Source of the DNA: Flagellimonas eckloniae
GTDB lineage: Bacteria; Bacteroidota; Bacteroidia; Flavobacteriales; Flavobacteriaceae
Assembly: GCF_001413955.1 (NCBI RefSeq)
Contig: NZ_LCTZ01000002.1
Span: forward strand, 3,761,501-3,825,500
Direction: 5' to 3'
Length of the DNA: 64,000 nucleotides
The notes below the pieces were generated by a model. That model saw only the letters and a program-made list of their open reading frames with translations, was not told the origin of the DNA and did no database searches. Position 1 is the first letter of the stretch; every line of letters begins with the position of its first letter. Position numbers and translations under genes: made by a program. Below, one piece after another: positions 27,456-58,039 of this stretch.

Positions 27456-27501
27456 CTAATATATAACCCCCATTATAAAACTGTATCCTGTGCTATGCTG
27501 T
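27456..27501 (-). promoter_or_regulatory. Direct-repeat promoter A (rhamnose operon)
   Basis: In the direction of the rhamnose operon the sequence reads ACAGCATA-GC-ACAGGATA (27501 down to 27484), two half-sites repeated at 10-nt pitch. Exactly 20 nt later comes TATATTAG (27463-27456), a one-mismatch TAnnTTTG box. The predicted leader is about 50 nt. The surrounding 27400-27756 gap holds no gene and also contains the GntR promoter. Confidence 0.65.
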
Positions 27502-27756
27502 TATTGTTAATTTTGAAAGTATAGTTTTTGGATTTTCAGGCCATCCTTGATAAAAAACTATCAATGTTGACCCAGAATGTTATAATTATAAATTTTTTCT
27601 AGGCTCTTTAAGTCGGTCTTAATTCAAAATAGGAATAGACTATCAAAAGGTTACACCAGATATTTTGGTATTTGGGATATCAACTAGATTTGAAAAGGAA
27701 TTTTTAAAATTGAAAAAATGTTGTTAACCTTACAATCAATCTAAACCTCTGTTTAA

Positions 27757-28803
27757 ATGAATATGTTTAAATATATTCAGATTGATAAAAATTCACGTAT
27801 CCCCAAGTATCAACAAATAGTGGATTCCATTATTTACAATATTTCCATTGGCAACCTTCAGATTGATGAAAAGATTCCATCAATCAATATGTTTAGTGAG
27901 GAATATCTTATTTCTAGGGATACTATTGAAAAAGCCTACAGTATTTTAAAGGAGCGGAAAATTATTTCATCGATTAGGGGCAAAGGATATTATATTGCTC
28001 GCACCCAATTGATATCCAAGATAAATATCTTGTTTCTGATAAATAAGCTGAGTACTTACAAAATGAAGATATACAATACCTTCATAAATAACATGGGTGG
28101 AAATTCACACACCGACCTTCATATTTATCATTGTGATGAGTCTTTGTTTTTAAACTTAATGGCAAAAAATAATAAATCATATGATTACTATGTAATCATG
28201 CCTCATTTTAAAACGAAAGACTTAAAACACATAAGTTACACTGATGAAGTATTGAAAACGATTAACAAAATCCCCAAGGGTAAGCTTATTATCATGGACA
28301 ATAATAAGCTTGAAATTGATGGAGACATTGTAGAAATCTATCAAGATTTTGAAAATGATATCTATCAAGCATTGAAAGAGGGCCTTTCTAAAATTTCATC
28401 ATACAAGAAATTGATTATGGTCTATCCCAAAAAATCGATTTACCCCTACCCTAAAAGGGTTTTGATGGGTTTTAAAAAATTCTGTACTGAATTTGATATG
28501 GATTTTGAAATTTTGGATGAAATATATGATGATATAATTCTCAAGAGGGGAGACTTGTTCATTACTATTGAAGAATCTGATTTAGTTAATTTAATAAATG
28601 AAATAAGGGACGGGGAGCTTCTTATTGGAAAGGATATAGGGGTTATCTCATATAATGACACTCAGTTAAAAGAACTGTTAAGGGTTACCGTAATTTCTAC
28701 AGATTTTGAAGCAATGGGTGAAACTGCGGCCAGAATGATATTGAACAAGGAGAAAGGTAAAATTAAAAATCCGTTTCACTTTATCGATAGAAAATCTATC
28801 TAG
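27757..28803 (+). CDS. GntR-family regulator with LacI-type sensor domain (copy 1)
   Basis: 348 residues. Residues 1-75 are a GntR winged helix (S-R-I-P-K-Y-Q-Q-I-V, G-x-L-x-I-D-E-K-I-P-S-I-N, S-R-D-T-I-E-K-A-Y, G-K-G-Y-Y-I-A). Residues 90-345 are a periplasmic-binding-protein-like sugar sensor ending G-V-I-S-Y-N-D-T and a late T-A-A-R-M-I-L. It is cytosolic. It is divergent from the rhamnose operon, so rhamnose or an intermediate is a plausible ligand. A close full-length paralogue lies at 43001-44047. A GntR protein (AusR) is known to repress alginate use in Zobellia. Confidence 0.9.
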   Translation: MNMFKYIQIDKNSRIPKYQQIVDSIIYNISIGNLQIDEKIPSINMFSEEYLISRDTIEKAYSILKERKIISSIRGKGYYIARTQLISKINILFLINKLSTYKMKIYNTFINNMGGNSHTDLHIYHCDESLFLNLMAKNNKSYDYYVIMPHFKTKDLKHISYTDEVLKTINKIPKGKLIIMDNNKLEIDGDIVEIYQDFENDIYQALKEGLSKISSYKKLIMVYPKKSIYPYPKRVLMGFKKFCTEFDMDFEILDEIYDDIILKRGDLFITIEESDLVNLINEIRDGELLIGKDIGVISYNDTQLKELLRVTVISTDFEAMGETAARMILNKEKGKIKNPFHFIDRKSI

Positions 28804-29032
28804 TTTTAGCGTTTTTCTTTCTTTTGGTCCAGTTTATTGATTAAAAGATTTCATTTTCCTCTTCGGATAACATTTGTTGAAACTGCTTTTGCATGATATT
28901 TAATTTTTTTTGTGGCAAATTCGTTCCCTATTCCAAATATCATCTAAAAAGGGTGGTTCTTGTAACGTTCAAGATCAAAAAAATCATAGTTTTATAAGGA
29001 GAACAAAGGGAAATACTTTTAAACAAAGCAGT

Positions 29033-34264: not shown

Positions 34265-37200
34265 TTAAAATTTAAGATTAAGACCTAAAATTACCTCACG
34301 ATCGTTGGGGAACCTTAAGTTATCAACCCCCGGTTGTAATGGGTTGCCTCTGGTACCTAATTCAGGATTAAAACCTTTGTAATTTGTCCATGTCAATAAA
34401 TTATTGCCCGATACAAAAAATGAACATTTCTTAAGAAAGCTTATCCTCTCGAGCACTTTTTGTGGCAAGTCATATCCTAATCGTACAAATCGTAATTTGA
34501 TAAAGCCGCCGTCGCTTACAAAAAAGCTGTTGGGTCTGTCCCTGTTTTGTGGCACACGGGTTAGTCTAGGGTAAACCGTAACGTCTCCTGGGTTTAGCCA
34601 AGCTCCTTCAATACGATCAGGACCTGGGGTCTCGTTTGAAGAGTTCAAATCGTTACGTGTTTCATCCCATCGTCTCCATAGATCATTACCTAGGGTAAAA
34701 TCAAAAAGAAAACTCAAACTGATATCTTTATATTTAAAGTCATTGGAAAATCCACCAAAGGCTGTTGGCAGACCATTACCTATTACCTGTCTATCCTCAT
34801 TGGTGATGACAAAATCACCATCAACATCGTCCCAGATAATATCGCCACCTTCGGCAACACGCCCATCATTTCTAATCTGATTAACATTACCTGTAAATTC
34901 TTGACCGTTCAAGGTATAATTAGCAAAGTTGCCAGAACCGTCAAAATTTGGGGTAAGCTGTACGCCATCATCTGTAAATGCATTGGATTCATCGTATTGA
35001 TATACACCAAGATTTTTGAAGCCAAAAATATTACCTATAGGTTGGCCTTCTTCAATCAAATAATCCCCTGATTGAAATGGAGTGCCTTCAAATAATCTAG
35101 TAACTTCATTTTCCTGAAAACTTATGTTGAAATTACTATTCCAACTGAAATTTTCAGATTGGATGATGCTGCCGCCTACATTTATGTCAATTCCTTGGTT
35201 ACGAACGGCACCAACGTTCTGACGAATTCCACTAAAACCTGATTCTTCTGGCAATGGAACACTTGCTAAAAGATCTTCGGTGTCTTTTCTCCAAACATCA
35301 AAGTTAACGGTTAACCGATTTCTGAACATGCCTAGGTCAAAACCAATATTGGTAGCATTAGTGCTTTCCCAGCTTAGTTCAGGATTTCCCAACCTAGAAG
35401 GTGCAACACCACTTATCCCATCATAAACCGCCCCCGGTTCAAAAGCTGATGTAAATTCATAATCACCAATTCGATCATTCCCTGTTTCACCATAACTAGC
35501 TCGTAATAGCAGGTTGTTTAAAATGTTGTTCCCTTGTAAAAAAGGTTCGTTGCTAACCCGCCAGCCAATAGACCCAGATGGGAAATAACCAAATTCTTTG
35601 TTTTCACCGAATCGAGAAGACCCGTCACGTCTTATTGTAGCACTAATCAAGTATCTGTTGTCAAAGTCATAGTTGAAACCTGCAAAAAGCGAGAACAAAT
35701 TACTTCTTGTATCAAAGGTTTGATCAGCATTAATACCCAGTCCATCTGGGTCTACATTGTTAAATGTTTGAATGTCTTCAGAAACAAAAAGAGCATTTGA
35801 AATACCAAATTCCTCTTGATACCGCTTCAATATCTGCATACCGGCAAATGCTGATACACTATGTTTTCCAAATTCGTTAGTATAATTGACGAAGTTTTCT
35901 TGTTGAATATCATAATCGATACGATCTCTATAGCTAGCCAAAGGATTCGTATTTCTAGGGTTTAATACCAATAAGGGTTCAAAGTTATTGTTCCTTCTTA
36001 ATCTAAAGTTGATACCTAGGGTAGACTTAATGGAAAAGGAAGGGGTAATGTTATATTGGGCCGAGTTAAAGCTCTGCCCCCTCCATGTTCGTAAGCGCTG
36101 TTGACGCAATCGTGCTTCCGCAACAGGGTTTTGACGACCCGCAATTTCGGGGGTCAAATCGCCGTTGGGTTCAAAGATGGGAAAGTAGGCGATTCGTTCC
36201 ACTAACTGTTGGAATACCTGTCCTTCATTAAGTCCGCTAAATTCTTCGAAAGATGCATTAAAAGAAGAACTGAGGGCTAATTTTTTGTTAGGTGTAAAAT
36301 CAAGCTTGAAACGGGTGTTTATTCTTCTGAAACTACTGTTCACCACAATACCTTCTTCATTTAAATAACCTGTGTTCCAATAAGCACGTACTTTATCACT
36401 ACCTGCACTTACAGCTACATTTATTTGATTTCTAGTACCAGCTCTTGTAATCAAATCTTGCAGATCGAACGAATTTCTAAGCAATAGACTTAAGGAATCA
36501 CGTTGGTTACCTGTAGGGTTTAGTCTTTGTGCGTCCGTTCTTCGCACATCTTCGTAAAACAAACGCTGCCTTGTATTGGCAACTGGAATGGCCCCATTCA
36601 AGGTATTAATACCAGTTACAACATTTACATCTATACTTACATCCCCAGCTTTACCGGATTTTGTGGTAATCAATACAACTCCGTTTGCACCTCGCGTACC
36701 ATAGATTGCAGTTGTTGCTCCATCTTTTAATACTTCCAAGGAAGCAATATCGTTGGGATCGATATTATCAACATTATCCAATTGTTGACCATCTACTACA
36801 TATAATGGCCCTGTACCGCCCGCACTGAAGGTAGAGGTACCTCGTACCCGAATATCAAAACCAGCTCCTGGACCACCGTTTGTTGCAATTTGCACTCCTG
36901 CTAAACGCCCTTGTATTCCTTCGAAGGCATTTGTGGGTGTCACTTCTGCAATCTTTTCAGCTTTTACAGTAGATAAAGCTCCCAATACTTTTTCACGGGA
37001 CACGGTAGCATAGCCAATTACCACGACCTCATCTAGGTTTTGGGTGTCCTCCTCAAGTGCTACATTGATGGTAGCTGCATTTACCGTAATTTCTTTGGCA
37101 TTAAATCCGATGTAAGAAAAAACGAGAATCCTAGAGCCTTGCCCCAGTCGTATGGAGTAGTTACCATCAAAGTCAGAAGATACTCCATTTGCTGTTCCTT

Positions 37201-37369
37201 TTTGCACCACATTTACCCCTGGAAGAGGTTCTCCGTTTACATCGGTCACCGTTCCCGTGACTGCTTGTATTTGTGCAAATGAAGACGAAACGGAAAATAT
37301 ACATAATACCATTGTCGCCATAAACGCCAAACCAGCAAAACGGAACCGTTTGTTAGACTTTTTTTTCAT
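34265..37369 (-). CDS. SusC-like TonB-dependent transporter (pair 1)
   Basis: A 1034-residue outer-membrane transporter. In order it shows a Sec signal (1-33, ending F-A-Q), a carboxypeptidase-D-like regulatory domain (35-115) with G-T-V-T-D-V-N-G-E-P-L-P-G-V, the TonB-box region L-D-E-V-V-V-I-G-Y, and a plug with V-R-G-T-S-T-F and Y-G-T-R-G-A-N-G-V. A 22-strand barrel ends in the typical aromatic K-F. Its first 59 residues differ from SusC2 at one position, while the plug and barrel differ widely. It is transcribed with SusD1 and FAS1 from direct-repeat promoter B. Confidence 0.96.
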   Translation of the reverse strand: MKKKSNKRFRFAGLAFMATMVLCIFSVSSSFAQIQAVTGTVTDVNGEPLPGVNVVQKGTANGVSSDFDGNYSIRLGQGSRILVFSYIGFNAKEITVNAATINVALEEDTQNLDEVVVIGYATVSREKVLGALSTVKAEKIAEVTPTNAFEGIQGRLAGVQIATNGGPGAGFDIRVRGTSTFSAGGTGPLYVVDGQQLDNVDNIDPNDIASLEVLKDGATTAIYGTRGANGVVLITTKSGKAGDVSIDVNVVTGINTLNGAIPVANTRQRLFYEDVRRTDAQRLNPTGNQRDSLSLLLRNSFDLQDLITRAGTRNQINVAVSAGSDKVRAYWNTGYLNEEGIVVNSSFRRINTRFKLDFTPNKKLALSSSFNASFEEFSGLNEGQVFQQLVERIAYFPIFEPNGDLTPEIAGRQNPVAEARLRQQRLRTWRGQSFNSAQYNITPSFSIKSTLGINFRLRRNNNFEPLLVLNPRNTNPLASYRDRIDYDIQQENFVNYTNEFGKHSVSAFAGMQILKRYQEEFGISNALFVSEDIQTFNNVDPDGLGINADQTFDTRSNLFSLFAGFNYDFDNRYLISATIRRDGSSRFGENKEFGYFPSGSIGWRVSNEPFLQGNNILNNLLLRASYGETGNDRIGDYEFTSAFEPGAVYDGISGVAPSRLGNPELSWESTNATNIGFDLGMFRNRLTVNFDVWRKDTEDLLASVPLPEESGFSGIRQNVGAVRNQGIDINVGGSIIQSENFSWNSNFNISFQENEVTRLFEGTPFQSGDYLIEEGQPIGNIFGFKNLGVYQYDESNAFTDDGVQLTPNFDGSGNFANYTLNGQEFTGNVNQIRNDGRVAEGGDIIWDDVDGDFVITNEDRQVIGNGLPTAFGGFSNDFKYKDISLSFLFDFTLGNDLWRRWDETRNDLNSSNETPGPDRIEGAWLNPGDVTVYPRLTRVPQNRDRPNSFFVSDGGFIKLRFVRLGYDLPQKVLERISFLKKCSFFVSGNNLLTWTNYKGFNPELGTRGNPLQPGVDNLRFPNDREVILGLNLKF

Positions 37370-37475: not shown

Positions 37476-37521
37476 CAATTATATAAACTTGAAATTTTTA
37501 GGGCATCCTGTACTGTGCTGA
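37476..37521 (-). promoter_or_regulatory. Direct-repeat promoter B (SusC1 operon)
   Basis: In the direction of SusC1 the sequence reads TCAGCACA-GT-ACAGGATG (37521 down to 37504). After exactly 20 nt comes TATAATTG (37483-37476), a one-mismatch TAnnTTTG box. The predicted leader is about 100 nt. No -33 TTG is present. Confidence 0.65.
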
Positions 37522-39500: not shown

Positions 39501-42500
39501 TTAAAAGCCCAACACCATTCCAACACTATAGGTTCTCAATAATGGAAAATCTATTGAATTGTCAAAAATATATTCAGGATCCAAAGGCTTTCGAATTTTG
39601 GAATATTCCCAAACATTTTGCCCTGCCACATATAACCTGAAACTAGACAGGCCTATCTTATCAGTTATTGAAGTGGGGAATGCATAACCAACATTAAGGT
39701 TTTTAAGTCTTATATAAGCCGCGTTCTGCAAAAATCGAGTTTGTTCAGTATAATTTTTGGCGTCTGTCTGAATTTCTGGAAAATATGCATTTGGATTATC
39801 TGGAGTCCAAGTATTGGTCAACCAAGATTCATCACCATTATACGAACGCCACGGGAAAAACCATGTCCAGTTTTGGTTACCCGGATAATAGTCTCTTTTT
39901 CCAACCCCTTGAAAGAATGCGTCTATGGAAAAACCTTTATAACTTATTCCGGTATTTATACCATAAGTATACCTTGGCGTTGTATTACCAATAATTCTTC
40001 TATCACCAGGATCGTCAAGCGTATTGATGCCAGGACTAATTTCTCCGTCACCATTAAGATCTCTAAATTGAATATCCCCTGCTCTCCATCCGTTACCAAG
40101 TCTAGATTGACTTTCATTAAAGGCCGCTACCTCTTCATCAGTTCCTCCTTGAAAAATACCAACGGTCTCATACCCCCATATCTCGCCAATCTGTTGGCCT
40201 TCATAGTAATTACTGCTCGCATTTGCGGATAAAGCATTTCCATTACTGGGATTACCTGGAATGGCCCCTGTAGGATTATCATACTTTGTTATTTCCGAAG
40301 TCCAATCCGCTACATTCAAATTAATGAAGTAGCTAATGTTATCCCCAATTTTGTCACGCCATTTTATGGATGCTTCCCAACCTTGGGTCTTTAGGTCGGC
40401 CCCGTTTTCCCTTGGGGCGGCAGCTCCTAAAACATCAGGATAAGCCCTTCTTAAGAGCATATCAAGGGTTTCTCGGGTATATACATCAAAAGACATATCC
40501 AATTTATTTTTGAACATCACAACATCTAAACCAAGGTTGGTACTTACTACACGCTCCCAAGTAAGACTTGGACTGACCAATCCTGGGGCACCAACAGTTG
40601 GAATTAGTCCTGAAGACAAAACATTATTTGATGTGCCTACACTAAGTGAGGGTATGTAGGGATAAAAACTATCATTTCCTAGGAGCTGGCTTCCAGAGCC
40701 TAAAAGTTGGTTACCTAGTTCTCCATAGGAGGCTCTTAACTTAAGATTATCGAGCCACTCACGAGTGCCCGACATAAAGTTTTCGTTAGAAATTCTCCAC
40801 CCTGCGGAAATTGAAGGGAAAAGCCCAAAACGGTCTCCTGCAGGAAAACGTGATGTGCCATCATAACGGGTGCTGGCTTCCAAAAGATATTTGTCCTTAT
40901 AAATGTAATTTAAGCGATAAAAATAGCCTCTAAGGGTAGCATGTCCTTTTCCACCTTCTATAAATCTATTCCCAGTAGTTGCCCCTATGTCAATAATGTT
41001 TGGCGAAACCAACTGGTTTGCATCACCAGCAATACGTTGGTTGAAATCCCATTCTTGGTTGTAACCAAAAACCATTTTTATGTAGTGGTCATCCAAAGAA
41101 TCTAATTCATATTCCCCAAAAAGGTTCAATACATAATATTGGTTAAAGTTTCTTTGTATCTCAATATCGTCATCCCCTACAACCTGTACCGGGTTATCTT
41201 GTTCAAGGTTAAATGAAACCACCTCATAGGCCGGTCTAAAGCTTTCAAACTGCCTGGTAAATGTATTATAGGAGAAATTACCGTTCAGGGTAAGGTTTTT
41301 AATGGGATTGGCTACTAGGCCACCCCTTAACCATATATCCTGGGTCGTGAACTTGGTACGCCCCCCATTTTCCAATTGTGCATAAATTGGGAACGCGTGG
41401 TTCCAACTCATACCCTCGTATTGTTCATACCCAGGTATTAAGGGTACGCGGTATGGACGTATGGGTTCAATCCGGATCAATGTATTTATATCCACAGCAG
41501 CTGGCTTATCTGAATTTTCAAAATTTGCAGTAATCTGGCTATCGAATGTTAACCAATCCGTGAGTTTATAATCTGCCTTCGCTAGAATATTATATCTTTT
41601 AAAATTATCATTTGCTGGATGATTATAAAACCCGTCGGTATTAAAAAGTCCAAAAGAAGTGAAGTAATTGGTTTTTTCAGTGGCACCTGAAATGGTCAAA
41701 TCAATTTTTTGTCTAGGTGAAGTTGCATTGACCAAATCGTCCACCATACCCGGGTTTTCATAATTTACAAAACTACCGTCAATTACTTCCCATGGTGCAT
41801 TGTTTGCCGGATCTGCCCAATATTGCTGAAGTCCTTGTAAATAAGCTTCATCGTATCTAGGATCTCCACCATTTCTTTCTTGTGCCTTATTTCTTTCCAA
41901 AGCATAGATATATCCATTGTCTATTTGGTTAATATTAAAGATAGGTTTGTTCCAAGATAGCTGTGTGCTCAATTGAACGTTAGTTTTACCAAGGGAGCCT
42001 TCCTTTGTCTTTACTAGAATTACACCAAAAGCGGCCCTTGCCCCGTAGATTGCAGCCGAGGCACCATCCTTTAATACATTTACGCTCTCAATGTTCTCCG
42101 GATTGATACGGTTGAGATCCATAGGTACACCATCAACAAGTATTAAAGGAGACCCCCCGTTAATAGATTCAAAACCCCGAATATTAAACTCCGGACCTTC
42201 CGTAGGGTCACCGCTAGTTACAGTTACATTAAGGCCTGGTACCACCCCTTGTAATCCCTCTCCAACATTGGCGATGGCCCTATTCTGTAAAACCTCAGCT
42301 GTTGCGACGGATACGGCACCGGTTAAATTTGCTTTTTTCTGAGTGCCATAACCCACAACAACTACTTCATCCAAGCTTTGAGTATCTTCATCAAGTGTTA
42401 CGTTAATGTTTGAGGCATTGACTGTTACTTCTTTGGTATTGAAACCAATAGAAGAAAAGATTATTACTCGCGATCCTGGAATTAATCTGATTGCATAATT

Positions 42501-42707
42501 GCCATCAAAGTCGGCAGATACCCCATTTGTTGTTCCTTTTTGAACCACATTTACCCCAGGAAGAGGTTCTCCGTTTACATCGGTCACCGTACCCGTCACT
42601 GCTTGTATTTGTGCAAATGAAGACGAAATGGAAAATATACATAATACCATCGTCGCCATAAACGCCAAACCAGCAAAACGGAACCGTTTGTTAGACTTTT
42701 TTTTCAT
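39501..42707 (-). CDS. SusC-like TonB-dependent transporter (pair 2)
   Basis: 1068 residues with the same layout as SusC1: signal peptide, carboxypeptidase-D-like domain, TonB-box region L-D-E-V-V-V-V-G-Y-G-T, plug with I-R-G-F-E-S-I-N-G-G and Y-G-A-R-A-A-F-G-V, then the barrel ending G-M-V-L-G-F. Its plug is unlike that of SusC1, so the two probably import different glycans although their N-termini are almost the same. It is transcribed from direct-repeat promoter C and followed by SusD2. Confidence 0.96.
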   Translation of the reverse strand: MKKKSNKRFRFAGLAFMATMVLCIFSISSSFAQIQAVTGTVTDVNGEPLPGVNVVQKGTTNGVSADFDGNYAIRLIPGSRVIIFSSIGFNTKEVTVNASNINVTLDEDTQSLDEVVVVGYGTQKKANLTGAVSVATAEVLQNRAIANVGEGLQGVVPGLNVTVTSGDPTEGPEFNIRGFESINGGSPLILVDGVPMDLNRINPENIESVNVLKDGASAAIYGARAAFGVILVKTKEGSLGKTNVQLSTQLSWNKPIFNINQIDNGYIYALERNKAQERNGGDPRYDEAYLQGLQQYWADPANNAPWEVIDGSFVNYENPGMVDDLVNATSPRQKIDLTISGATEKTNYFTSFGLFNTDGFYNHPANDNFKRYNILAKADYKLTDWLTFDSQITANFENSDKPAAVDINTLIRIEPIRPYRVPLIPGYEQYEGMSWNHAFPIYAQLENGGRTKFTTQDIWLRGGLVANPIKNLTLNGNFSYNTFTRQFESFRPAYEVVSFNLEQDNPVQVVGDDDIEIQRNFNQYYVLNLFGEYELDSLDDHYIKMVFGYNQEWDFNQRIAGDANQLVSPNIIDIGATTGNRFIEGGKGHATLRGYFYRLNYIYKDKYLLEASTRYDGTSRFPAGDRFGLFPSISAGWRISNENFMSGTREWLDNLKLRASYGELGNQLLGSGSQLLGNDSFYPYIPSLSVGTSNNVLSSGLIPTVGAPGLVSPSLTWERVVSTNLGLDVVMFKNKLDMSFDVYTRETLDMLLRRAYPDVLGAAAPRENGADLKTQGWEASIKWRDKIGDNISYFINLNVADWTSEITKYDNPTGAIPGNPSNGNALSANASSNYYEGQQIGEIWGYETVGIFQGGTDEEVAAFNESQSRLGNGWRAGDIQFRDLNGDGEISPGINTLDDPGDRRIIGNTTPRYTYGINTGISYKGFSIDAFFQGVGKRDYYPGNQNWTWFFPWRSYNGDESWLTNTWTPDNPNAYFPEIQTDAKNYTEQTRFLQNAAYIRLKNLNVGYAFPTSITDKIGLSSFRLYVAGQNVWEYSKIRKPLDPEYIFDNSIDFPLLRTYSVGMVLGF

Positions 42708-42813: not shown

Positions 42814-42859
42814 CAATTATATAAACTTGAAATTTTCATAGCATCCTGTGGTGTACTGT
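42814..42859 (-). promoter_or_regulatory. Direct-repeat promoter C (SusC2 operon)
   Basis: In the direction of SusC2 the sequence reads ACAGTACA-CC-ACAGGATG (42859 down to 42842). After exactly 20 nt comes TATAATTG (42821-42814). Distance to the ATG equals that of promoter B, consistent with a duplicated 5' region. Confidence 0.65.
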
Positions 42860-43000: not shown

Positions 43001-44047
43001 TTACAAAGAAAAACGGTCTATGAAGTGAAACTTGTTTTTTATGTCAATAGGGTTATTGTTTAAGATCATATTTGCAGCTTCTTCCCCCATTTTTTTAAAG
43101 TTTGTACTCATTACTGTAATCCCTAAAAGTTCCTTTAGTGGGGTGTCATTGTAAGAAATAATACCGATATCCTCTCCCAATTTATAATGGCGGTCTCTTA
43201 CCTGTTTGACCAAGTTTACAAGATCTCCTTCCTCTATTATTATGTAAAGGTCATTTAGTTGTAACTCCATACTATCATAAATCTCATCAAGTATTTCATA
43301 GTCTATGGCATGTTGAATACAGAACCTTTTAAACCCCGTAACTATGCCCTTGGGGTAAGGATATACTGCTTTGCTTGGATATACTAGCATAATTTTCTTG
43401 TACTTATTCAACTTTTCCAAAGCAGTGGTCAAAGCATCATAAATATCTTCGGTAAAATCCTGATAAATTCTTCCAGATTCCTTTGATAGACTTTTGAGGT
43501 TACGATCCATTATTATCAATTTACCATTTGGTATGGAATGAATGGTTTTCAGGATGTCATCAGTACAGCCCATATGTTGCAAATTCTCATTTTTAAAATG
43601 TGGCATGATGACATAATAATCATAAAGATTTTTCTTTTTATCTAAAATATCCCTGAAAACTAAGGGTTCGCAATGGTATATATCAAGGTCAACCTTTGCG
43701 TTCGCGCCCAGCGTGTTTACAAAAGAATTGAAAATGCGCATTTTGTATGTGCTCAGTTTATTGATCAAGAAAAGAACGTTTGCTTGGATGGATAGGTCCG
43801 TTTTTGCAATGTAATACCCCTTACCTTTTACTGATGCTATAATATTTTGTTTTTTTAAGAGTCCATAAGCCTTTTCAACTGTATCTCTAGACAATAAATA
43901 CTCTTCACTTAGTTCATTGATAGAAGGTATTTTTTGCCCCATACCTAAACTGCCCATATGAATACTCTTCATTATCGAATCCATTACTTGTTTGTATTTG
44001 GGGATTCTAGAGTTTGTATCTATGTTTATATATTCCAATCTTTTCAA
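43001..44047 (-). CDS. GntR-family regulator with LacI-type sensor domain (copy 2)
   Basis: 348 residues, the same length as copy 1 at 27757-28803 and similar along the whole sequence. It has the winged helix with S-R-I-P-K-Y-K-Q-V-M and S-R-D-T-V-E-K-A-Y-G-L-L, then the sugar-sensor domain with Y-D-Y-Y-V-I-M-P-H-F and G-I-I-S-Y-N-D-T. It is the last gene of the kduI-kduD-DUF4861 operon, 6 nt after its neighbour, so it is co-expressed with uronate catabolism. A uronate breakdown product is the likely ligand. It may bind the direct-repeat promoters, but that is untested. Confidence 0.9.
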   Translation of the reverse strand: MKRLEYINIDTNSRIPKYKQVMDSIMKSIHMGSLGMGQKIPSINELSEEYLLSRDTVEKAYGLLKKQNIIASVKGKGYYIAKTDLSIQANVLFLINKLSTYKMRIFNSFVNTLGANAKVDLDIYHCEPLVFRDILDKKKNLYDYYVIMPHFKNENLQHMGCTDDILKTIHSIPNGKLIIMDRNLKSLSKESGRIYQDFTEDIYDALTTALEKLNKYKKIMLVYPSKAVYPYPKGIVTGFKRFCIQHAIDYEILDEIYDSMELQLNDLYIIIEEGDLVNLVKQVRDRHYKLGEDIGIISYNDTPLKELLGITVMSTNFKKMGEEAANMILNNNPIDIKNKFHFIDRFSL

Positions 44048-46043: not shown

Positions 46044-46883
46044 TTATCTTAAATCTGTTATCTTGGTGGCATCCATATCACCATAATCCATATTTTCTCC
46101 TGCCATACCCCATATAAAAGTGTAGTTCGAAGTTCCTGAACCACAATGGATAGACCATGGTGGTGAAATAACGGCTTCGTGGTTCTGCATCCAGATATGA
46201 CGTGTTTCTTGGGGCTGTCCCATAAAATGACATACAGATTGTCCTTCGGGAACATCCAAATAAAAATAAACCTCCATCCTTCGGTCATGTACATGTGCTG
46301 GCATAGTGTTCCAAACACTTCCCGTGTTCAACTCGGTCATTCCCATCTGCAGTTGACAGGTCGTGACTATCCCACCAATGATCATTTGGCTCACAGTACG
46401 ATCATTTGCCGTTTCTAGAGAACCAAGCTCCAATTTATTGGCCTCCGAAAGACTAACCTTTTTAGTAGGGTAGGTTGTATGTGCTGGTGCTGAATTCAAG
46501 TAGAACATGGCTGGCTTGTTCTTATCATTGCTCTTGAAAACAATTTCTTTATTGCCCATACCAATATATAGGGCATCTTTATTGCCCAATTCAAAGGAAG
46601 TACCATCTACTTCAACTGAACCCGAATCGCCTACATTTATAATTCCAAGCTCACGTCTTTCTAGAAAATAATCTGCCTTTAATGGGTCGATTTTATGTAG
46701 TTTGAGTGGATTTTCTGGAACTGCCGAACCAACTATATAGCGGTCATAATGGGTATAGGTCAGATTGATTTTACCTTTTTGCATAAGATTGTCTATCAAA
46801 AACTCATCCCGCAGTTCGGTAGTATCGTATTTTTTTACAGCTTTTGGGCTTGAGGCGTATCTAGTTTGGTAGGATATTGACAT
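46044..46883 (-). CDS. kduI: 5-dehydro-4-deoxy-D-glucuronate isomerase KduI
   Basis: A 279-residue cupin isomerase and the first gene of its operon. The zinc site is visible in H-V-H-D-R-R-M-E-V-Y-F-Y around residues 195-207, with a last His in P-W-S-I-H-C-G-S-G-T. The ending Y-T-F-I-W-G-M-A-G-E-N-M-D-Y-G-D-M-D is typical. It isomerises the linear keto-uronate that forms from unsaturated uronic acids released by GH88-type enzymes. Its predicted promoter is far upstream, giving a leader of about 370 nt. Confidence 0.96.
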   Translation of the reverse strand: MSISYQTRYASSPKAVKKYDTTELRDEFLIDNLMQKGKINLTYTHYDRYIVGSAVPENPLKLHKIDPLKADYFLERRELGIINVGDSGSVEVDGTSFELGNKDALYIGMGNKEIVFKSNDKNKPAMFYLNSAPAHTTYPTKKVSLSEANKLELGSLETANDRTVSQMIIGGIVTTCQLQMGMTELNTGSVWNTMPAHVHDRRMEVYFYLDVPEGQSVCHFMGQPQETRHIWMQNHEAVISPPWSIHCGSGTSNYTFIWGMAGENMDYGDMDATKITDLR

Positions 46884-47258
46884 AATATTTATTTTCTATT
46901 TGTTAGCTATTTGTTTCCTTTCTACTCTTTTCTAACCACTCCTTTTTCAAATAATATGAGCGATAATACCTCAGACTTTACTACCTATTCTATTGAATTC
47001 TTTTGGCTACTTTTAGAAGTGTTTTGCTACAAACCAAAAAAAGAAAATTTGTGCCTTTCATTAACTATAACTGTGGCAGATTTACAGAATAAAACGCGAC
47101 TGGTATCAGTTAAAACAATTACTTTTTTTTAGAATCAAGTACTTAAAAACATGATAACACCGCTTACTCAAATTTCAAGCTTTTAATTGAAAGGAACTAG
47201 TGGGTCACCTGCACAAATAGTCCAAAAAAAGGGGTAAATAAGTCCAACATATCGTTTC
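46884..47258 (-). other. Long untranslated leader upstream of kduI
   Basis: If direct-repeat promoter D drives kduI, transcripts carry about 370 nt before the ATG. I see no gene here beyond frames of up to 23 codons on the minus strand, no second TAnnTTTG box facing kduI, and no clear riboswitch. The 46911-47132 plus-strand frame has no protein-like features. Confidence 0.4.
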
Positions 47259-47304
47259 TAAAAGTACTAAAGGTGAAAAATGCAGCTATCCTGTGGTATC
47301 TTGT
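47259..47304 (-). promoter_or_regulatory. Direct-repeat promoter D (kdu operon)
   Basis: In the direction of kduI the sequence reads ACAAGATA-CC-ACAGGATA (47304 down to 47287). After exactly 20 nt comes TACTTTTA (47266-47259), a one-mismatch TAnnTTTG box. It is the only member of the set far from its gene. Confidence 0.55.
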
Positions 47305-47778: not shown

Positions 47779-50700
47779 ATGAAAAACCTATATACATTCT
47801 GTTTTGTTTTTTTTAGTGTTTTTTGCTTTGGTCAAAGTCCAGACAAGGCCTATCAATTTAAACACCTAAATACTAGTGATGGACTTTCCCAAAGTTCCGT
47901 TATCGCAATGGAGCAAGACAGATTAGGGCGCATGTGGTTGGGTACACGGGATGGACTCAATGTGTATGATGGCACCATGTTTAAGGTGTACCGCACTATT
48001 TTAAACGATAGTACGTCCATCAGTAATAGCGATATTCTTTCAATAAAGGAAGATAGTGAAGGTTTTTTATGGATAGGTACTTATAACGGGTTGAACAGAT
48101 ATGACCCTATTAAAGATACCTTTGAACGGTTTTATCATTTCAAGGATAAAAATTCGCTAAGTAACAATACGGTTTGGTCAATTGAGGAAGTTACAAATGG
48201 TGATATTTGGATTGGAACCTCAAATGGATTGTCTATCTACAACAAAGAAACAAATGAATTCACCAATGTGTACAATAATGGTGATTCAGTTTCTGATAAC
48301 GAAATACCATCTAATTATGTTCTAAGCATTAAGGAGGCCAATAATGGCACAATTTGGGTAGGTACATCAAAAGGTTTTTGTAAAGCTATAAAAGAAGAGG
48401 AGCATACTATTGACTTTCAACAATTCAGCCCAAGCAATTATCATGAACAACCCTTTGTACAGACCATTTCAGATTGTGGGGAAAACAGTATCTGCGTAGG
48501 GACTAAAAACATGGGGTTGTTGAGTTTTGACTTGATTTCTGAACGATTTCTTACCAATTCCCGTACCATTGAATATAAAGATGTAAGAGCAGTTGCAGCT
48601 GCAGAGGAAGGTGTTTTATGGGTGGGTACCTCTAAAGGAATCATTTTATTGAATAACAATGATATTTTAAAAAATATCGCTTACGAACCTGAAAAGCAAA
48701 ACGGTATAAGTCACAACTATATTAAATCCATTTTTAAGGATAGGAAAGGATCTATTTGGATAGGCTCCTATTACGGGGGAATAGATATTTGGGATGTTTC
48801 CAATGCCAACTTTATCAACTATAAAGAATCTTCAGGCAAAAATAGGTTAGGACATAAGGTAGTGAGTTCTATAGTCAGCGACAATAAAGAGAATCTATAT
48901 TTTGGAACCGAAGGTGGTGGGGTAACGGTTTTTGATAAAAAAGGGAAAGAACCACGTTACATCAATACATCAAATACCAATATTCTCCAAAGTGATAATA
49001 TCAAATCATTGCTTATTGATGATAACTTACTTTGGGTGGGAACCTTTAACGGTGGAGTCGAAATTTTCAATATTGAACAAAATCGGTTTGAAACAAGTAT
49101 CCTATCTAAAGAGTTGGATGACATATTAAACGAGACAGGAGTTTATACCATTAAAAAAGGTATAGAAGGGGATTATTGGTTTGGTACATTTGGGCAAGGA
49201 CTCGTTCGCTATGATTTGAAGAAAAAAACATATAAGGTATTTGGTCATAAGCCGGAAGTAGATAAATCCGTTTCAAGTAACAGAATTCGTAGTTTAATGA
49301 TAGATAAGGGTGCAAACGTGTGGGTAGGTACGCAAAGTGGTCTTAATCTATTGCCTTTCTCCAATGGAGGATATACATCGGACAAGATAACTAGATTTTT
49401 TTATGATAATGAAACAGGGTCTGGTGATGATATTCTTACAATTTTTCAAGATACAAGTGGTGTAATCTGGATTGGAATAAGGGCAAAAGGCCTATTTCGC
49501 TTTGATGGCAAAAAATTTCAAAAAATACCTTTAAATACCAATATACAGGTAACCTCTATTTATGCCATTTTAGAGGATGTTGACAATACATTATGGATGA
49601 GCAGTAACCAAGGTTTAGTGAAATATAATACTTACGAAGGTTCGTTTGTTCTATATAGTGGAAAAGATGGACTAGTGGGAAACGAGTTCAGTACCGGCGC
49701 GGCTCTTCGGCCAGAACCCTCAAAATTCTATTTTGGGGGGGCGGAAGGTGTTTCTTATTTTGATTCTAAGGCAATCGCTAAAAATTCTTATGTACCGCAG
49801 GTTTTATTAACTGATTTGAAGATTAAGAACGAGACAGTATCTGTCACCAATGAAAATGGTATTTTAAATCAAAGTATGCCTTTTACCAAGCAGATAACAC
49901 TTGATTATAATAAGGCAAATTTTTCCATTGATTTTACAATCCCCAACTTTATTAATCCAAATAGCAACCAGTACCAATATCGTATGGTAGGATTAGATGA
50001 AAATTGGACGCTCACCAATCAATCCAAGGCGAACTATACCATACAGAGGCCAGGGGATTATGTATTTCAAGTAAAAGGAGCAAATAATGATGGATATTGG
50101 AACCCTGAGCCTACTATTTTGAAAATTAAGGTTCTTCCTGCTCCTTGGCTAAGTAATTGGGCAAAAATCTTATATAGTCTTTTATTTTTAGGAGTACTTT
50201 TTGGGTTGATTGGTATTATTCGTTCAAGAACAAAACTCAAACATAAATTGGAATTGGAACATTTGGAGCATGAGCGCAATAAAGAGCTCAACAATGCCAA
50301 ACTAAGATTTTTTACCAATATCTCCCACGAGTTTAGAACGCCCTTGACCCTTATTACTGGACCTTTGCAACAATTGTTGACAGATTATAAGGGGAGTAGG
50401 GTCGTTTATCAAAAGTTGTTGGTGATAGAAAGTAATGCCAAACATCTATTGCAGTTGATAAACAGGCTGATGGACTTTAGGAAATTAGAGCATAAAAAAT
50501 ATAAACTTGAAACTGCTGAAGGTAATATTGTAAAATTTCTAAAGGAAATCTACCTCTCTTTTTCTGAATTTGCCAAAGGAAACGGTTACGAGTACCTATT
50601 TGAAACGGAGCAGTCTAAAATTCTTGTGTATTATGATCGTTCCAAACTCGAGCAAGTATTTTACAATTTGATTTCCAATGCATTTAAATATACTCCTTAC

Positions 50701-51888
50701 GGTGGAAAGATTATTATTAGTGTAAAAGAAGATAGAGGATCGGTATTTGTAGATGTTAAAGATTCAGGACGTGGAATACCTGAGAAATATAGAGATAAAG
50801 TATTTGATCGGTTTTTTGAAATACCCGATTTCACTAAAGATGAAAACACTCGCGGTACGGGAACTGGAATCGGTTTATCCATTGCCAAAAGTATAGTGGA
50901 GCTTCATAAAGGAACTATTTCGGTTGTTAGCAATAATTCATCTGGAAGTACCTTTAGAGTAGCTTTGAAATTAGGAAGACTCCACGTCAACGATGATGAG
51001 ATAATCAAGGATTTTAAGTTTAGTGATGATCTAGGTCTTTATACTTCGCAATTACAGCAAAAGTTACCCGATATTTCGATAACTTCAAGCGAACTGTTGA
51101 TGACTGAGGAACGTGATGTAGTTCTTATAGTTGAGGATAATGTACCCTTGAGAAACTTTATTAAAGATATATTACAGGATACTTATAATGTACTAGAAGC
51201 AGGTAATGGAAAAGAGGCGCTGGAAAAAGCTTTGAAATATATTCCGTCCTTAATTGTTTCTGATGTGATTATGCCCGTAATGGTAGGGACAGAACTTTGT
51301 GCAAAGATTAAAGAGAATATTCAAACAAGCCATATTCCTGTAATATTGCTTACTTCGAGAACATCTTTGTTATATAAGTTTGAAGGTTTGGAGAGTGGTG
51401 CGGATGATTACATAAGCAAGCCTTTTGATGTTATGGAATTCAAACTCCGAATTAAAAACCTGATAGATTCTACAAACAGGCTTAAAAGTAAATTTTCTGA
51501 TGAAAAAGGCTTAACACCCAATGAAATAGTGATTTCATCTATAGATGAAAAGTTATTGAAGAAAGCACTCAAGATTGTTGAAGATAATATTTCAAATGAC
51601 CAATTTGATATTATAACCTTTAGTGCCGAGCTTGGGGTTAGTAGGACTTTACTGTTTACTAAGATTAAGGCTTGGACCAATTTCACACCATATGAATTCA
51701 TTCAAGAAATCAGAATGAAACGAGCTATTCAATTGCTGGAGCAGGGAAATCTTACAATTGCTGAAATTGGTTATCAAGTAGGGTTTAAAAACCCAAAATA
51801 CTTCAGCAAATGCTTTGTGAAAAAATTCGGTTTAAGTCCATCGGCTTACCTGAAAAAATTCTCCGAAGAGTTTTTTGGCTTAAATTAA
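47779..51888 (+). CDS. Hybrid two-component system sensor/regulator (HTCS)
   Basis: 1369 residues in one polypeptide. It has a signal peptide (1-18), a periplasmic sensor made of two beta-propellers with repeats of W-I/V-G-T-x-x-G-L (20-690), a Y_Y_Y domain (695-780), and a transmembrane helix near 790-815. A histidine kinase follows with His850 in I-S-H-E-F-R-T-P, N-A-F-K-Y-T and G-T-G-I-G-L-S. The receiver domain has Asp1162 in S-D-V-I-M-P, and the C-terminus is an AraC-type helix-turn-helix (about 1265-1365) with I-A-E-I-G-Y-Q-V-G-F. It should sense an oligosaccharide in the periplasm and activate nearby genes, most likely SusC3 and those after it. Confidence 0.97.
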   Translation: MKNLYTFCFVFFSVFCFGQSPDKAYQFKHLNTSDGLSQSSVIAMEQDRLGRMWLGTRDGLNVYDGTMFKVYRTILNDSTSISNSDILSIKEDSEGFLWIGTYNGLNRYDPIKDTFERFYHFKDKNSLSNNTVWSIEEVTNGDIWIGTSNGLSIYNKETNEFTNVYNNGDSVSDNEIPSNYVLSIKEANNGTIWVGTSKGFCKAIKEEEHTIDFQQFSPSNYHEQPFVQTISDCGENSICVGTKNMGLLSFDLISERFLTNSRTIEYKDVRAVAAAEEGVLWVGTSKGIILLNNNDILKNIAYEPEKQNGISHNYIKSIFKDRKGSIWIGSYYGGIDIWDVSNANFINYKESSGKNRLGHKVVSSIVSDNKENLYFGTEGGGVTVFDKKGKEPRYINTSNTNILQSDNIKSLLIDDNLLWVGTFNGGVEIFNIEQNRFETSILSKELDDILNETGVYTIKKGIEGDYWFGTFGQGLVRYDLKKKTYKVFGHKPEVDKSVSSNRIRSLMIDKGANVWVGTQSGLNLLPFSNGGYTSDKITRFFYDNETGSGDDILTIFQDTSGVIWIGIRAKGLFRFDGKKFQKIPLNTNIQVTSIYAILEDVDNTLWMSSNQGLVKYNTYEGSFVLYSGKDGLVGNEFSTGAALRPEPSKFYFGGAEGVSYFDSKAIAKNSYVPQVLLTDLKIKNETVSVTNENGILNQSMPFTKQITLDYNKANFSIDFTIPNFINPNSNQYQYRMVGLDENWTLTNQSKANYTIQRPGDYVFQVKGANNDGYWNPEPTILKIKVLPAPWLSNWAKILYSLLFLGVLFGLIGIIRSRTKLKHKLELEHLEHERNKELNNAKLRFFTNISHEFRTPLTLITGPLQQLLTDYKGSRVVYQKLLVIESNAKHLLQLINRLMDFRKLEHKKYKLETAEGNIVKFLKEIYLSFSEFAKGNGYEYLFETEQSKILVYYDRSKLEQVFYNLISNAFKYTPYGGKIIISVKEDRGSVFVDVKDSGRGIPEKYRDKVFDRFFEIPDFTKDENTRGTGTGIGLSIAKSIVELHKGTISVVSNNSSGSTFRVALKLGRLHVNDDEIIKDFKFSDDLGLYTSQLQQKLPDISITSSELLMTEERDVVLIVEDNVPLRNFIKDILQDTYNVLEAGNGKEALEKALKYIPSLIVSDVIMPVMVGTELCAKIKENIQTSHIPVILLTSRTSLLYKFEGLESGADDYISKPFDVMEFKLRIKNLIDSTNRLKSKFSDEKGLTPNEIVISSIDEKLLKKALKIVEDNISNDQFDIITFSAELGVSRTLLFTKIKAWTNFTPYEFIQEIRMKRAIQLLEQGNLTIAEIGYQVGFKNPKYFSKCFVKKFGLSPSAYLKKFSEEFFGLN

Positions 51889-51970
51889 ATGCCTGAATAT
51901 TAGTCATTTAAATTTTAATTATAGGATTTTTGCACCCCTATTTCTGGACTTTTACCATTCTCTTTTAGCA

Positions 51971-55138: not shown

Positions 55139-56659
55139 ATGAAAAATTTTAAAACTTTAGGAATTCTTCTGGCATTTGCTACGGTAGTGGGGTGCTCGGA
55201 TTTAGAAGAGGTGCCCGTAGGTAGGCTGTCGCCAGATGGTCTGGTACAGTCACCGGCAGATGTTCAAACCTTGATTAACGGTGCCATTGGTAATATGGCC
55301 ACAGAGGCTTATTGGGGAAGAAAACTGTCGCTGCCAATTATGTTGAGAAGTGATATGGTTTCCATAGGAGATTTAGGGACACCAGGCCGTCGGCAAGATG
55401 TCGATAGATTTTCAATGTCCGATGATAATGGTATGGTCACGGCATTATGGCCAAGGGCATACCAAGTCATAGCGGCAACGAATGAAGCCATTGCGGCGGC
55501 AGCTACCTTGACAGGGTTTCCACCGGAACAAATTGATCCGGTAACAGCTCAAGCACACTTTTTTAGAGCATATACCTATTATCATTTGGTTCGATTGTTT
55601 GGCGAAATCCCATACCTTGATGCGCCAGTAGTCAATGTCGAAGAAGCTAGTCAAATAGGCAAGAGCTCCGTGGATGCGGTATACAACAATATCATTGCTG
55701 ATTTAGAGCTTGCCAAATCACAACTTCCAGATAACCAATCTGTTAGCGCTTTGCCATCAAAAGCAACGGCAGCGGCATTTTTAGCTTCAGTTTATTTAAC
55801 CTTAGGGGAATTTCAAAATGCTTATGATGAAGCAAAATTTGTAATAGATAACGAAGGTGCCTTTAATTTGGGTCTTGCCGCTGATTTTCAAGATTTGTTT
55901 GACCATGCCGCCCAAACAAGTACGAACGAATTTCTTTTAAGTCTTGATTTTAACGGTTTCAGTGATGGGGATACAGGAAGGGATTATGCACCTGCCCTAA
56001 CTGGAATACGAGCAAATGAACGCGGCAACATTGGAGGTGGTTGGTCTGTTGCTGTACCTACGATTAATGTATATAATTCATGGGATGGTCGTGACTACAG
56101 AAAAGCGGTAAGTTTAGACACCACAGGAATATTCGATGGCGTAGAAGAACCCTTTACTGCTTTCCCTGATTTTGATTCAAGAAATATCCAAAGTGCCTAT
56201 ATCGCTAAGTATACAAGAGCCATTGGGCCTACAGGAACAGGAAATGGTCGGGCATCAAGTTTAAATTATGGATTAATGCGTTATGCTGAGGTCTTGTTGA
56301 TAGCTGCAGAAGCTTTAAACGAATTGAGCCCGGGTTCTGGAGAAGCGGCCGGTTATGTCAATCGCGTAAGAGCAAGAGCAAGGGAAGGCAACGGTTCAGC
56401 TTTCCCAGCGGATGTTGCAGGAGGTATGTCGCAAGATGATTTCAGGAATATGGTGCTGGAAGAGCGTAAATGGGAACTTGCCTTCGAATTCAAAAGGTGG
56501 TATGACATCAAAAGAAGACAACTAGGTCCAGAGGTTTTTGGACCCGGAAGTTTGGAACCACAACCTAATTTTGATCCAAGTCGAGATTACTTATTTCCTC
56601 TGCCTTTCGATGAGTTGGATAGGAACCCCAATTTAGCTCCCAACAATCCCGGTTATTAA
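55139..56659 (+). CDS. SusD-like glycan-binding lipoprotein (pair 3)
   Basis: 506 residues with lipobox V-V-G-C (Cys19) and an acidic S-D-L-E-E start of the mature chain. SusD hallmarks include T-A-Q-A-H-F-F-R-A-Y-T-Y-Y-H-L-V-R-L-F-G near residue 137 and A-T-A-A-A-F-L-A-S-V-Y-L-T-L-G. The C-terminal E-E-R-K-W-E-L-A-F-E-F-K-R-W-Y-D-I-K-R is also present, and the end N-L-A-P-N-N-P-G-Y is typical. It works with SusC3 as the outer-membrane importer for the products handled by the GH88 and GH2 enzymes downstream. Confidence 0.96.
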   Translation: MKNFKTLGILLAFATVVGCSDLEEVPVGRLSPDGLVQSPADVQTLINGAIGNMATEAYWGRKLSLPIMLRSDMVSIGDLGTPGRRQDVDRFSMSDDNGMVTALWPRAYQVIAATNEAIAAAATLTGFPPEQIDPVTAQAHFFRAYTYYHLVRLFGEIPYLDAPVVNVEEASQIGKSSVDAVYNNIIADLELAKSQLPDNQSVSALPSKATAAAFLASVYLTLGEFQNAYDEAKFVIDNEGAFNLGLAADFQDLFDHAAQTSTNEFLLSLDFNGFSDGDTGRDYAPALTGIRANERGNIGGGWSVAVPTINVYNSWDGRDYRKAVSLDTTGIFDGVEEPFTAFPDFDSRNIQSAYIAKYTRAIGPTGTGNGRASSLNYGLMRYAEVLLIAAEALNELSPGSGEAAGYVNRVRARAREGNGSAFPADVAGGMSQDDFRNMVLEERKWELAFEFKRWYDIKRRQLGPEVFGPGSLEPQPNFDPSRDYLFPLPFDELDRNPNLAPNNPGY

Positions 56660-56730
56660 AATCAAATTCTTCCAGGGTTGTCTTTTGTCTTTAGAAAAGT
56701 AGCCTTGGGAGAGTTTTAAAAATCCATTTA

Positions 56731-57915
56731 ATGAATAGAGTTAGTTACTTTGTCTTGACTGTTGGTTTTACTTTATTTTTTCTGTCTTGTAAAACCGACG
56801 GTAAAGACGAAAATGTTACAAGTTCTGTATCGATAGACTCATTAGTACAAACACGGTATCAAAAGCTATTGAAGTATCCTTTGGATTCTTTAAGTTTTCC
56901 TAGAAGCTATAATCCAACGGCAAATGAAATAAGAAAAGTTCCTTCTAGAGATTGGACCAGTGGATTTTTCCCCGGTAATCTTTGGCATTTATTCCAACTT
57001 ACGGGAAATGAAGCGTTCAAGGAACGTGCACAAGAATGGACAAGCTTTATTGAAAAGGAAAAGCTAAATGCAGGTACACACGACATGGGCTTTAAAGTAT
57101 TCTGCAGTTTTGGTGAAGGATTAAGGATTGGTAAAAACGAAGATTATAAAAAAATTATAGTTGAAAGCGCCAAGACCTTATCCACTCGCTATAATGAACA
57201 AGTGGAATGCCTTCGGTCTTGGGATTTTAATCAAGATGTTTGGGAATTTCCCGTAATCGTTGACAATATGATGAACTTGGAATTGTTGTTCGAGGCAACA
57301 AAAATTTCAGGTGACAGTACCTATCACAATATTGCAGTTTCCCATGCCAATACTACACTCAAAAACCATTTTAGAGAAGATTCAAGTAGCTATCATGTAG
57401 TTGTTTATGATACCATAAATGGTAAGGTAAAAGATAAGGTTACCCATCAAGGTTTCAATGCTTCTTCAGCATGGGCTAGGGGTCAGGCCTGGGGTATTTA
57501 TGGGTTTACTATGGCGTATAGATATACCAAAGATGCCGAATATCTGGCACAGGCAAAATCTAGCGCTTCATTTTATATGCAACATCCAAATATGCGAGAT
57601 GATGGTATTCCGTATTGGGATTTCAATGACCCTAATATTCCTGATGCAGTAAGAGATGTCTCTGCTGCAACAATTGTTACCTCAGCGTTTTATGAGCTTT
57701 CACAATATGATAATGATTCTCGGTATTTGGAATACGCCAATAAGGTCATGGAGACTTTAAATACAGAGGAATACATTCTAGGACCAGAAGTTCAAGCACC
57801 ATTTATTTTAAAACATAGTACCGGTAATTGGCCAAGGAAAGACGAAATGGATAAACCGATTGTTTATGGAGATTATTACTACTTGGAAGCACTTCTGAGA
57901 AAAGAAAGTCAATGA
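56731..57915 (+). CDS. GH88 unsaturated glucuronyl hydrolase, lipoprotein
   Basis: Removes the 4,5-unsaturated uronic acid left at the non-reducing end by polysaccharide lyases. The 394-residue lipoprotein (F-L-S-C, Cys20) has the GH88 alpha6/alpha6 barrel. The two catalytic Asp correspond to D118 in T-H-D-M-G-F and D178 in V-I-V-D-N-M-M-N. Further family segments are D-W-T-S-G-F-F-P-G-N and W-A-R-G-Q-A-W-G-I-Y-G-F. The released sugar opens to the linear keto-uronate used by KduI, which links this gene to the kdu operon. It probably faces the periplasm. Confidence 0.93.
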   Translation: MNRVSYFVLTVGFTLFFLSCKTDGKDENVTSSVSIDSLVQTRYQKLLKYPLDSLSFPRSYNPTANEIRKVPSRDWTSGFFPGNLWHLFQLTGNEAFKERAQEWTSFIEKEKLNAGTHDMGFKVFCSFGEGLRIGKNEDYKKIIVESAKTLSTRYNEQVECLRSWDFNQDVWEFPVIVDNMMNLELLFEATKISGDSTYHNIAVSHANTTLKNHFREDSSSYHVVVYDTINGKVKDKVTHQGFNASSAWARGQAWGIYGFTMAYRYTKDAEYLAQAKSSASFYMQHPNMRDDGIPYWDFNDPNIPDAVRDVSAATIVTSAFYELSQYDNDSRYLEYANKVMETLNTEEYILGPEVQAPFILKHSTGNWPRKDEMDKPIVYGDYYYLEALLRKESQ

Positions 57916-57992
57916 CCGAATTAGGAAAGTTCATATCCCAAATCAAAACAAATACGATATCGGCAAAGAATAGTAGCGTTTAATACCCGAGT

Positions 57993-58039
57993 ACAAGGAT
58001 AGTACAGGATGAAACCAAAACTTGACCACCCTACTTTTA
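57993..58039 (+). promoter_or_regulatory. Direct-repeat promoter E (GH2 operon)
   Basis: The plus strand reads ACAAGGATA-GT-ACAGGATG (57993-58011), with one extra base in the first half-site. After exactly 20 nt comes TACTTTTA (58032-58039). The predicted leader is about 35 nt before the GH2 ATG at 58080. This splits the GH2 group from the SusCD3-GH88 transcript. Confidence 0.6.

Follow-up and report, generated by a model that had tools for sequence, protein, structure and literature searches.

What couples glycan import to the catabolism of uronate and rhamnose in a marine flavobacterium? The question is raised by a part of the Flagellimonas eckloniae genome (4.13 Mb) in which several operons carry the same direct repeat in front of their -7 boxes. 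The window, which is the whole 64,000-nucleotide stretch of contig NZ_LCTZ01000002.1 analysed here (G000:C2:3761501-3825500), holds five such promoters. A preliminary description had assigned them to one activator at the -33 position, with two GntR proteins and the AraC domain of a hybrid two-component system (HTCS) as possible readers. We give a probability of about 0.7 to the reading in which a cytoplasmic GntR/LacI chimera that regulates L-rhamnose catabolism binds the element as its operator; this chimera shares the architecture of AraR and would be a class-II-type activator of an ulvan-type polysaccharide utilization locus (PUL). Sites, spacing, regulon membership, co-occurrence with GntR genes and co-change of recognition helix and operator were all computed.

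The element and its distance from the -7 box

The five repeats occur at the places and on the strands first described, although the fifth is better framed at 57994-58011. They were scored against CAGNAYANNACAGGATR and against a stricter pattern that includes the box (repeat-N20-TANNTT). Upstream of the rhamnose operon, the predicted operator ACAGCATAGCACAGGATA (27484..27501, minus strand) has no mismatch in either scan and lies 20 nt from the -7 box TATATTAG (27456..27463, minus). The predicted operators TCAGCACAGTACAGGATG of SusC1 (37504..37521, minus) and ACAGTACACCACAGGATG of SusC2 (42842..42859, minus) match CAGNAYANNACAGGATR without mismatch and the stricter pattern with three and two mismatches, respectively; both have the box TATAATTG (37476..37483 and 42814..42821, minus). 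The kduI operon follows ACAAGATACCACAGGATA (47287..47304, minus; one mismatch in both scans) and the box TACTTTTA (47259..47266, minus). The GH2 operon follows CAAGGATAGTACAGGATG (57994..58011, plus; one mismatch to CAGNAYANNACAGGATR, two to the stricter pattern) and the same box TACTTTTA (58032..58039, plus). As had been claimed, the 20-nt spacing from 18-mer to box is exact in 5/5, each box is one mismatch from TAnnTTTG, and none of the five promoters has a -33 TTG by eye; the GH2 promoter has a TTG within its spacer, 7 nt ahead of the box.

A chance origin of the element is unlikely. In a 142.5-kb region, which comprises the window and the stretch downstream of it, seven sites match CAGNAYANNACAGGATR with no mismatch and two with one, far above the means of 0 and 0.2 in ten third-order Markov shuffles. 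The number of two-mismatch sites (three observed versus 3.8 expected) is not above expectation and the three-mismatch list is at chance level, so that the -7 box and a place upstream of an operon must carry those sites. Alignment of 12 region sites gives the core NCAGNAYASYACAGGATRC, followed by 20 mostly unconserved nucleotides and TAnnTT, with TA exactly at 20 nt in 10/12; among region sites with at most two mismatches, TA stands exactly at 20 nt in 11/12.

The preliminary description had called for a search of the whole genome, and its outcome is favourable: the strict pattern with at most two mismatches has eight matches, all within an 87-kb stretch (3,788,958-3,875,702) and none elsewhere. 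Allowing three mismatches gives 18 matches; ten have exactly three, with four in the region and six elsewhere, and the reversed pattern, used as control, gives four. A looser pattern with at most two mismatches has 11 matches, one of them elsewhere (2,142,080), and its reversal has one. The extent first given needs revision: the five window sites stand, and the limit at 58039 is only the window edge, with more sites up to genome position 3,875,702.

Candidate reader of the element

Two genes encode candidate readers. GntR-a (27757..28803, plus strand) is divergent from the rhamnose operon, and GntR-b (43001..44047, minus) is the last gene of the presumed kduI operon, with orthologs that adjoin the element in relatives. 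The two proteins are 57% identical, and Pfam assigns to both an N-terminal GntR winged helix (PF00392) and a C-terminal GalR/LacI-type sensor domain (PF13377, 28.1 and 27.2 bits; cut-off 26.5). They share SRDT[IV]EKAY and so may both read the same sites.

Co-occurrence ties the element to these proteins. Each of 71 congeneric genomes was searched for the GntR, for the element-plus-box pattern and for an HTCS ortholog. A GntR of at least 55% identity is present in 15/71, and all 15 have at least four pattern matches (92 matches, reversed 5). At least four matches occur in 0/51 genomes without such a GntR (35 matches, reversed 22), one of which, G068, has a 36% match, and in 2/5 genomes with only a 42%-identical subfamily (15 matches, reversed 4). 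Fisher's test over the 71 genomes (15/15 versus 2/56) gives p 1.5e-13, uncorrected for phylogeny. The reader is thus very probably a GntR/LacI chimera of AraR architecture rather than the HTCS, judging by sequence comparison.

The HTCS (47779..51888, plus; Pfam) is located in the PUL, and predicted Bacteroides HTCS sites are direct repeats (PMC3878776). Orthologs (67-100%) occur in 4/71 congeneric genomes, and 4/4 of these genomes have at least four matches. That the HTCS reads the element is nevertheless highly improbable, and this candidate was rejected since there are motif clusters for which no ortholog was detected: none was found in 11/15 genomes with the GntR and matches, where eight first-look candidates were scored per genome. 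Among 11 motif clusters, an HTCS homolog is present only in G000 and G060, and G007 has a short AraC-type protein. Known HTCS sites average 21 bp apart (PMC3878776), versus 10 bp here; a second half 21 bp upstream of the core is absent among the conserved columns, and other HTCS-related loci (L007-L038) have no site with at most two mismatches. The earlier list of readers therefore holds for the GntR proteins and fails for the HTCS AraC domain, with its ortholog in 4/15 GntR-positive genomes that have at least four matches. At the HTCS locus, the closest relatives that have a name are an uncultured Allomuricauda (98%) and a Flagellimonas (89%), and sites are present there in both.

A separate block also counts against the HTCS as reader. 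CCCCTATTTCTGGACTTTTA lies upstream of SusC3 and is conserved in three genomes; the exact block CCCCTNTTTNTGGACTNTT occurs only twice in the genome, at SusC3 (51935-51953, plus) and at kduI (47216-47234, minus), where it lies 24 nt downstream of the -7 box. By eye, these blocks have GGA repeats 22 bp apart. With at most two mismatches the block pattern, which was built from its own two exact sites, gives six matches versus six in the control. The block may be a candidate HTCS operator, in which case kduI would be dually controlled, and the HTCS perhaps serves SusC3.

Could a different regulator, one that is not linked to the rhamnose operon yet always accompanies it, read the element? Co-occurrence cannot separate the GntR from a co-travelling gene, and the regulator survey covered fetched stretches only. 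Such a reader is nonetheless very unlikely. In G066, the 40 kb around the motif cluster contain the rhamnose operon and the GntR and no HTCS homolog; among the 25 proteins of this stretch, only the GntR and an enzyme, the aldolase/dehydrogenase, are represented by relatives in every one of the ten other clusters. The GntR recognition helix, moreover, changes with the operator, as described below.

Several loci depart from this pattern of co-occurrence. In G024, which lacks the GntR, a one-mismatch site lies inside an open reading frame (ORF) and no ORF there matches the cluster proteins, so this site was taken as chance. G055 (L160, position 6310), a 79%-complete genome in which no GntR was found, has one perfect site with two rhamnosidase-like ORFs about 0.45 kb downstream; the site may be genuine and its GntR unassembled. 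Tandem GntR/LacI gene pairs are present in G140, G114, G223, G202 and G233, and no element was found within 1.5 kb of the tandem loci L125, L126, L136 and L137.

Co-change of recognition helix and operator

The operator varies with the protein. In the 42% GntR subfamily, CAGAACAGTACAGAACGG or a near form adjoins the gene in 7/7 loci, with both halves altered alike. Over 88 loci, all related by descent and some near-identical or containing the same gene twice, the recognition-helix dipeptide (the two residues after SRDT[V/I/A]) partitions with the operator. Loci with an EK or ER helix (54) have CAGGAY in 36, the CAGAAC class in three and no site in 15; those with VR or VK (11) have the CAGAAC class in nine and none in two; and those with L/I-x (17) have CTRGTAG in 16 and none in one. 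The CAGAAC class denotes any site found with a downstream half other than CAGGAT or CAGGAC, and sites of it and of CAGGAY were counted only if a box-like T/A pattern stood at 20 nt. No operator was found in the six loci of the set with other helices (0/6).

More distant, galactose-type paralogs (35-40% identity; L163-L182, L208-L237) carry a different 10-bp-pitch repeat, ACTRGTAGGTACTRGTAGGT, near the -7 box. This repeat was first seen in L163-L182 and recurs with at most one mismatch in 27/30 later loci (L208-L237; reversed 0); 11 of these 30 contain the same genes as before, and 17 of the other 19 carry ACTRGTAGGTACTRGTAGGT. In 20/28 galactose-type sites the box lies 35-40 nt from the first base, with a modal distance of 38 (six sites). 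The neighbours of these paralogs are presumably galactokinase-like and epimerase-like genes, as we name them from their sequences.

Another reading takes the downstream half, CAGGATR, for the -33 element of an alternative sigma factor, in line with its place and its rigid spacing. Against this, the -7 boxes look like TAnnTTTG, the upstream half is conserved as well, and both halves change with the GntR subfamily, which leaves this the least plausible of the explanations considered.

Spacing, repeat geometry and mode of regulation

An earlier count placed 44/59 perfect elements at 20 nt (685,937 bases), which was partly circular because some stretches had been chosen for an element with a box at that distance. 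It is superseded by a count over 53 loci for which GntR similarity was the sole criterion of choice (213,312 bases): 18 from the genus, seven from the genus with the 42% subfamily and 28 from the family, with identical repeats taken once in the counts per group. Perfect CRGNAYANNACAGRAYR elements number 52 and occur in 36/53 loci, and TAnnTT follows at 20 nt in 40 of them, at 18 in eight, at 21 in one and at 19 in none. With at most one mismatch there are 74 elements versus three reversed, 48 of them with TAnnTT at 20 nt. Loci with such a site and a box at 20 nt number 13/18 in the genus, 6/7 in the 42% subfamily and 20/28 in the family. Conservation of the spacing in relatives, which the preliminary description had made a test of its proposal, is thus found for most elements and fails for one genus, discussed below, and for the looser galactose paralogs; together, these counts confine the rigid 20 nt to the rhamnose branch within the family.

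The repeat fits a direct arrangement better than a palindromic one. The best palindrome scores 0.551, a direct repeat of pitch 5 scores 0.620 and one of pitch 10 reaches 0.744. The sites scored were collected with a pattern that is repeat-like in its own right; it left columns 8 and 18 free, yet G or C predominates in each of them (100% and 93%). A palindromic operator of the AraR kind was therefore rejected (0.551 versus 0.744), and the variants alter both halves alike.

By the -33/-7 consensus of Bacteroidota, the -7 box spans about -11 to -4, which places the element at about -49 to -32 with its centre near -40, the position of a class-II activator. Across 64 aligned sites, box position 8, which was not selected for, is occupied by G in 59% of cases and by A in 34%; T occupies position 7 in only 44%. 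The site lies over -33 at a rigid distance from -7 (40/52 perfect elements at exactly 20 nt) and the promoters lack a -33 TTG, and this geometry suggests a class-II-type activator. The claim of a single reader at the -33 position gains support from the same place and spacing in protein-chosen loci.

The same GntR might instead read the element as a repressor that covers -33 and is released by sugar, like AraR of Bacillus subtilis. AraR does repress (PMC4218819), the site overlaps -33, and the looser spacing of the galactose-type paralogs would suit repression there. Repression would not require exact spacing, yet such spacing is kept in 40/52 perfect elements, and the five promoters have no -33 TTG by eye. 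We regard repression as unlikely.

Several points weigh against a rigidly spaced direct-repeat activator site. No element with at most one mismatch and TAnnTT at 20 nt was counted in 8/28 family and 5/18 genus loci: family loci L125, L126, L136 and L137 have no site at all, L123 and L146 have only two-mismatch matches with the box absent, and L132 has a two-mismatch site with TA at 20. In nine loci that all belong to one genus (L128, L183-L189, L191), TTATTTTA comes after a rhamnose-type element, which can be read as TA at 21 or as a variant of TAnnTT at 20; outside the family 2/16 loci pass (L192, L204). Loci share descent, so counts are not independent. A weak GT-N5-AC pseudo-palindrome, the best palindrome above, is present too, and the direct-repeat score was favoured because the collecting patterns were repeat-like. 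B. subtilis AraR, finally, is a repressor with palindromic operators (PMC4218819).

For the class-II-type activator that we prefer, a mechanism can be proposed, with binding, head-to-tail geometry, activation and effector all inferred. Two winged-helix domains would read the 8-bp half-sites CAGNAYAS and CAGGATRC head-to-tail, 10 bp (one helical turn) apart on one DNA face. The half-site pair would stand in for the -33 element, and from its constant distance of 20 nt to the -7 box the regulator would contact or recruit RNA polymerase. A rhamnose-pathway sugar on the LacI-type domain would set the activity of the regulator, and the ulvan-type PUL (lyase, SusC pairs, rhamnosidases, sulfatases, KduI and rhamnose operon) would be switched together.

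Genes of the regulon

The element occurs at 13 sites, five in the window and eight beyond it, in front of about 13 operons, with TA off the exact 20 nt at two (3,833,436 and 3,859,213). On the minus strand of the window, the rhamnose operon begins with a bifunctional rhamnulose-1-phosphate aldolase/short-chain dehydrogenase (25294..27399; NCBIfam TIGR02632 and NF006191, above cut-off), followed by an L-rhamnose isomerase-like protein (24001..25281; TIGR02629, E 2.1e-150, below its own cut-off) and an FGGY-type kinase that is probably a rhamnulokinase (22623..23996; Pfam PF00370, TIGR02627 far below cut-off). SusC1 (34265..37369, minus) and SusC2 (39501..42707, minus) are SusC-like TonB-dependent transporters by Pfam. 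KduI of uronate catabolism (46044..46883, minus; PF04962) is the first gene of a presumed operon with a short-chain dehydrogenase/reductase (SDR), a DUF4861 protein and GntR-b, and GH2 (58080..60485, plus; Pfam) heads a presumed operon with alginate-lyase-like and lactonase-like proteins.

Beyond the window, sites precede reading frames that start at about 3,831,640 (without a family in Pfam), 3,833,380 (encoding a PLH30 ulvan-lyase trefoil domain), 3,848,825 (GH106), 3,859,026 (a GH115_C-like domain), 3,859,275 (a 3-keto-disaccharide hydrolase), 3,867,450, 3,868,029 (a sulfatase) and 3,875,631 (GH78, then two sulfatases). The frame at 3,867,450 encodes 1172 aa (C2, 3,863,932-3,867,450), resembles a sulfatase-rhamnosidase fusion by eye only and is preceded by a perfect element.

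Against the general background on ulvan, the gene set (ulvan-lyase domain, GH88, GH78, GH106, sulfatases, KduI and rhamnose enzymes) points to an ulvan-type PUL as its likely identity. The regulon is local and apparently covers a complete ulvan-type pathway, much of it outside the window. One regulon linking glycan import with uronate and rhamnose catabolism, as originally suggested, agrees with the confinement of strict sites to the stretch of these operons.

Relation to known systems and significance

AraR of B. subtilis has the same fusion of a GntR winged helix with a GalR/LacI-type sensor (PMC4494728) and likewise controls a sugar catabolism regulon; its DNA-binding domain is the second-best solved structure by sequence for the GntR regulator. 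AraR differs in repressing from palindromes (PMC4218819), whereas here the repeat is head-to-tail with a 10-bp pitch at a fixed distance from -7. Direct-repeat operators and activators are known for MocR/GabR/PdxR (PMC5320631), so that a GntR winged helix can in principle work in this geometry; the best NCBIfam score of the winged helix is to PdxR, far below cut-off, and the MocR sensor is aminotransferase-like, whereas the sensor here is LacI-like (PF13377). Direct repeats are also reported for the GntR proteins FarR, NagQ and NanR (PMC4494728), which belong to the FadR and HutC subfamilies and have sensors that are not LacI-type.

Bacteroides HTCS regulons share PUL-wide control via direct repeats (PMC3878776) but use a pitch of about 21 bp and an AraC-type domain instead of 10 bp and GntR. 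DeoR-family RhaR controls a rhamnose regulon through direct repeats of 10-11 bp periodicity (PMC3870299); it belongs to another protein family than the GntR domain found here, and the RhaR of C. aurantiacus is described as a repressor that rhamnulose releases. In Bacteroidota, B. thetaiotaomicron has a RhaR that regulates rhamnose genes positively; it is from the AraC family, with 21-bp periodicity and a single target operon. The literature covered, which leaves subscription papers mostly outside, describes no GntR regulator of rhamnose genes in Flavobacteriaceae that uses this operator. The system is best classed as a GntR regulon of AraR architecture whose operator geometry is not that of AraR.

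A wider proposition, on which opinion could fall either way, is that a Bacteroidota clade of AraR-like GntR/LacI proteins reads head-to-tail 10-bp repeats, re-coded by the recognition helix in rhamnose and galactose branches, and that the rhamnose branch consists of class-II-type activators, so that a cytoplasmic monosaccharide sensor, not an HTCS, would command a whole algal-polysaccharide PUL. The analysis offers three recognition helices, each matched with its operator, towards a protein-DNA code for a GntR subfamily of unexpected repeat geometry. For a large marine PUL with an HTCS in its midst, it proposes the reader, its operator and the geometry of the promoters. If this is true, a cytoplasmic rhamnose-pathway sugar, and not a periplasmic oligosaccharide, would drive most ulvan genes.

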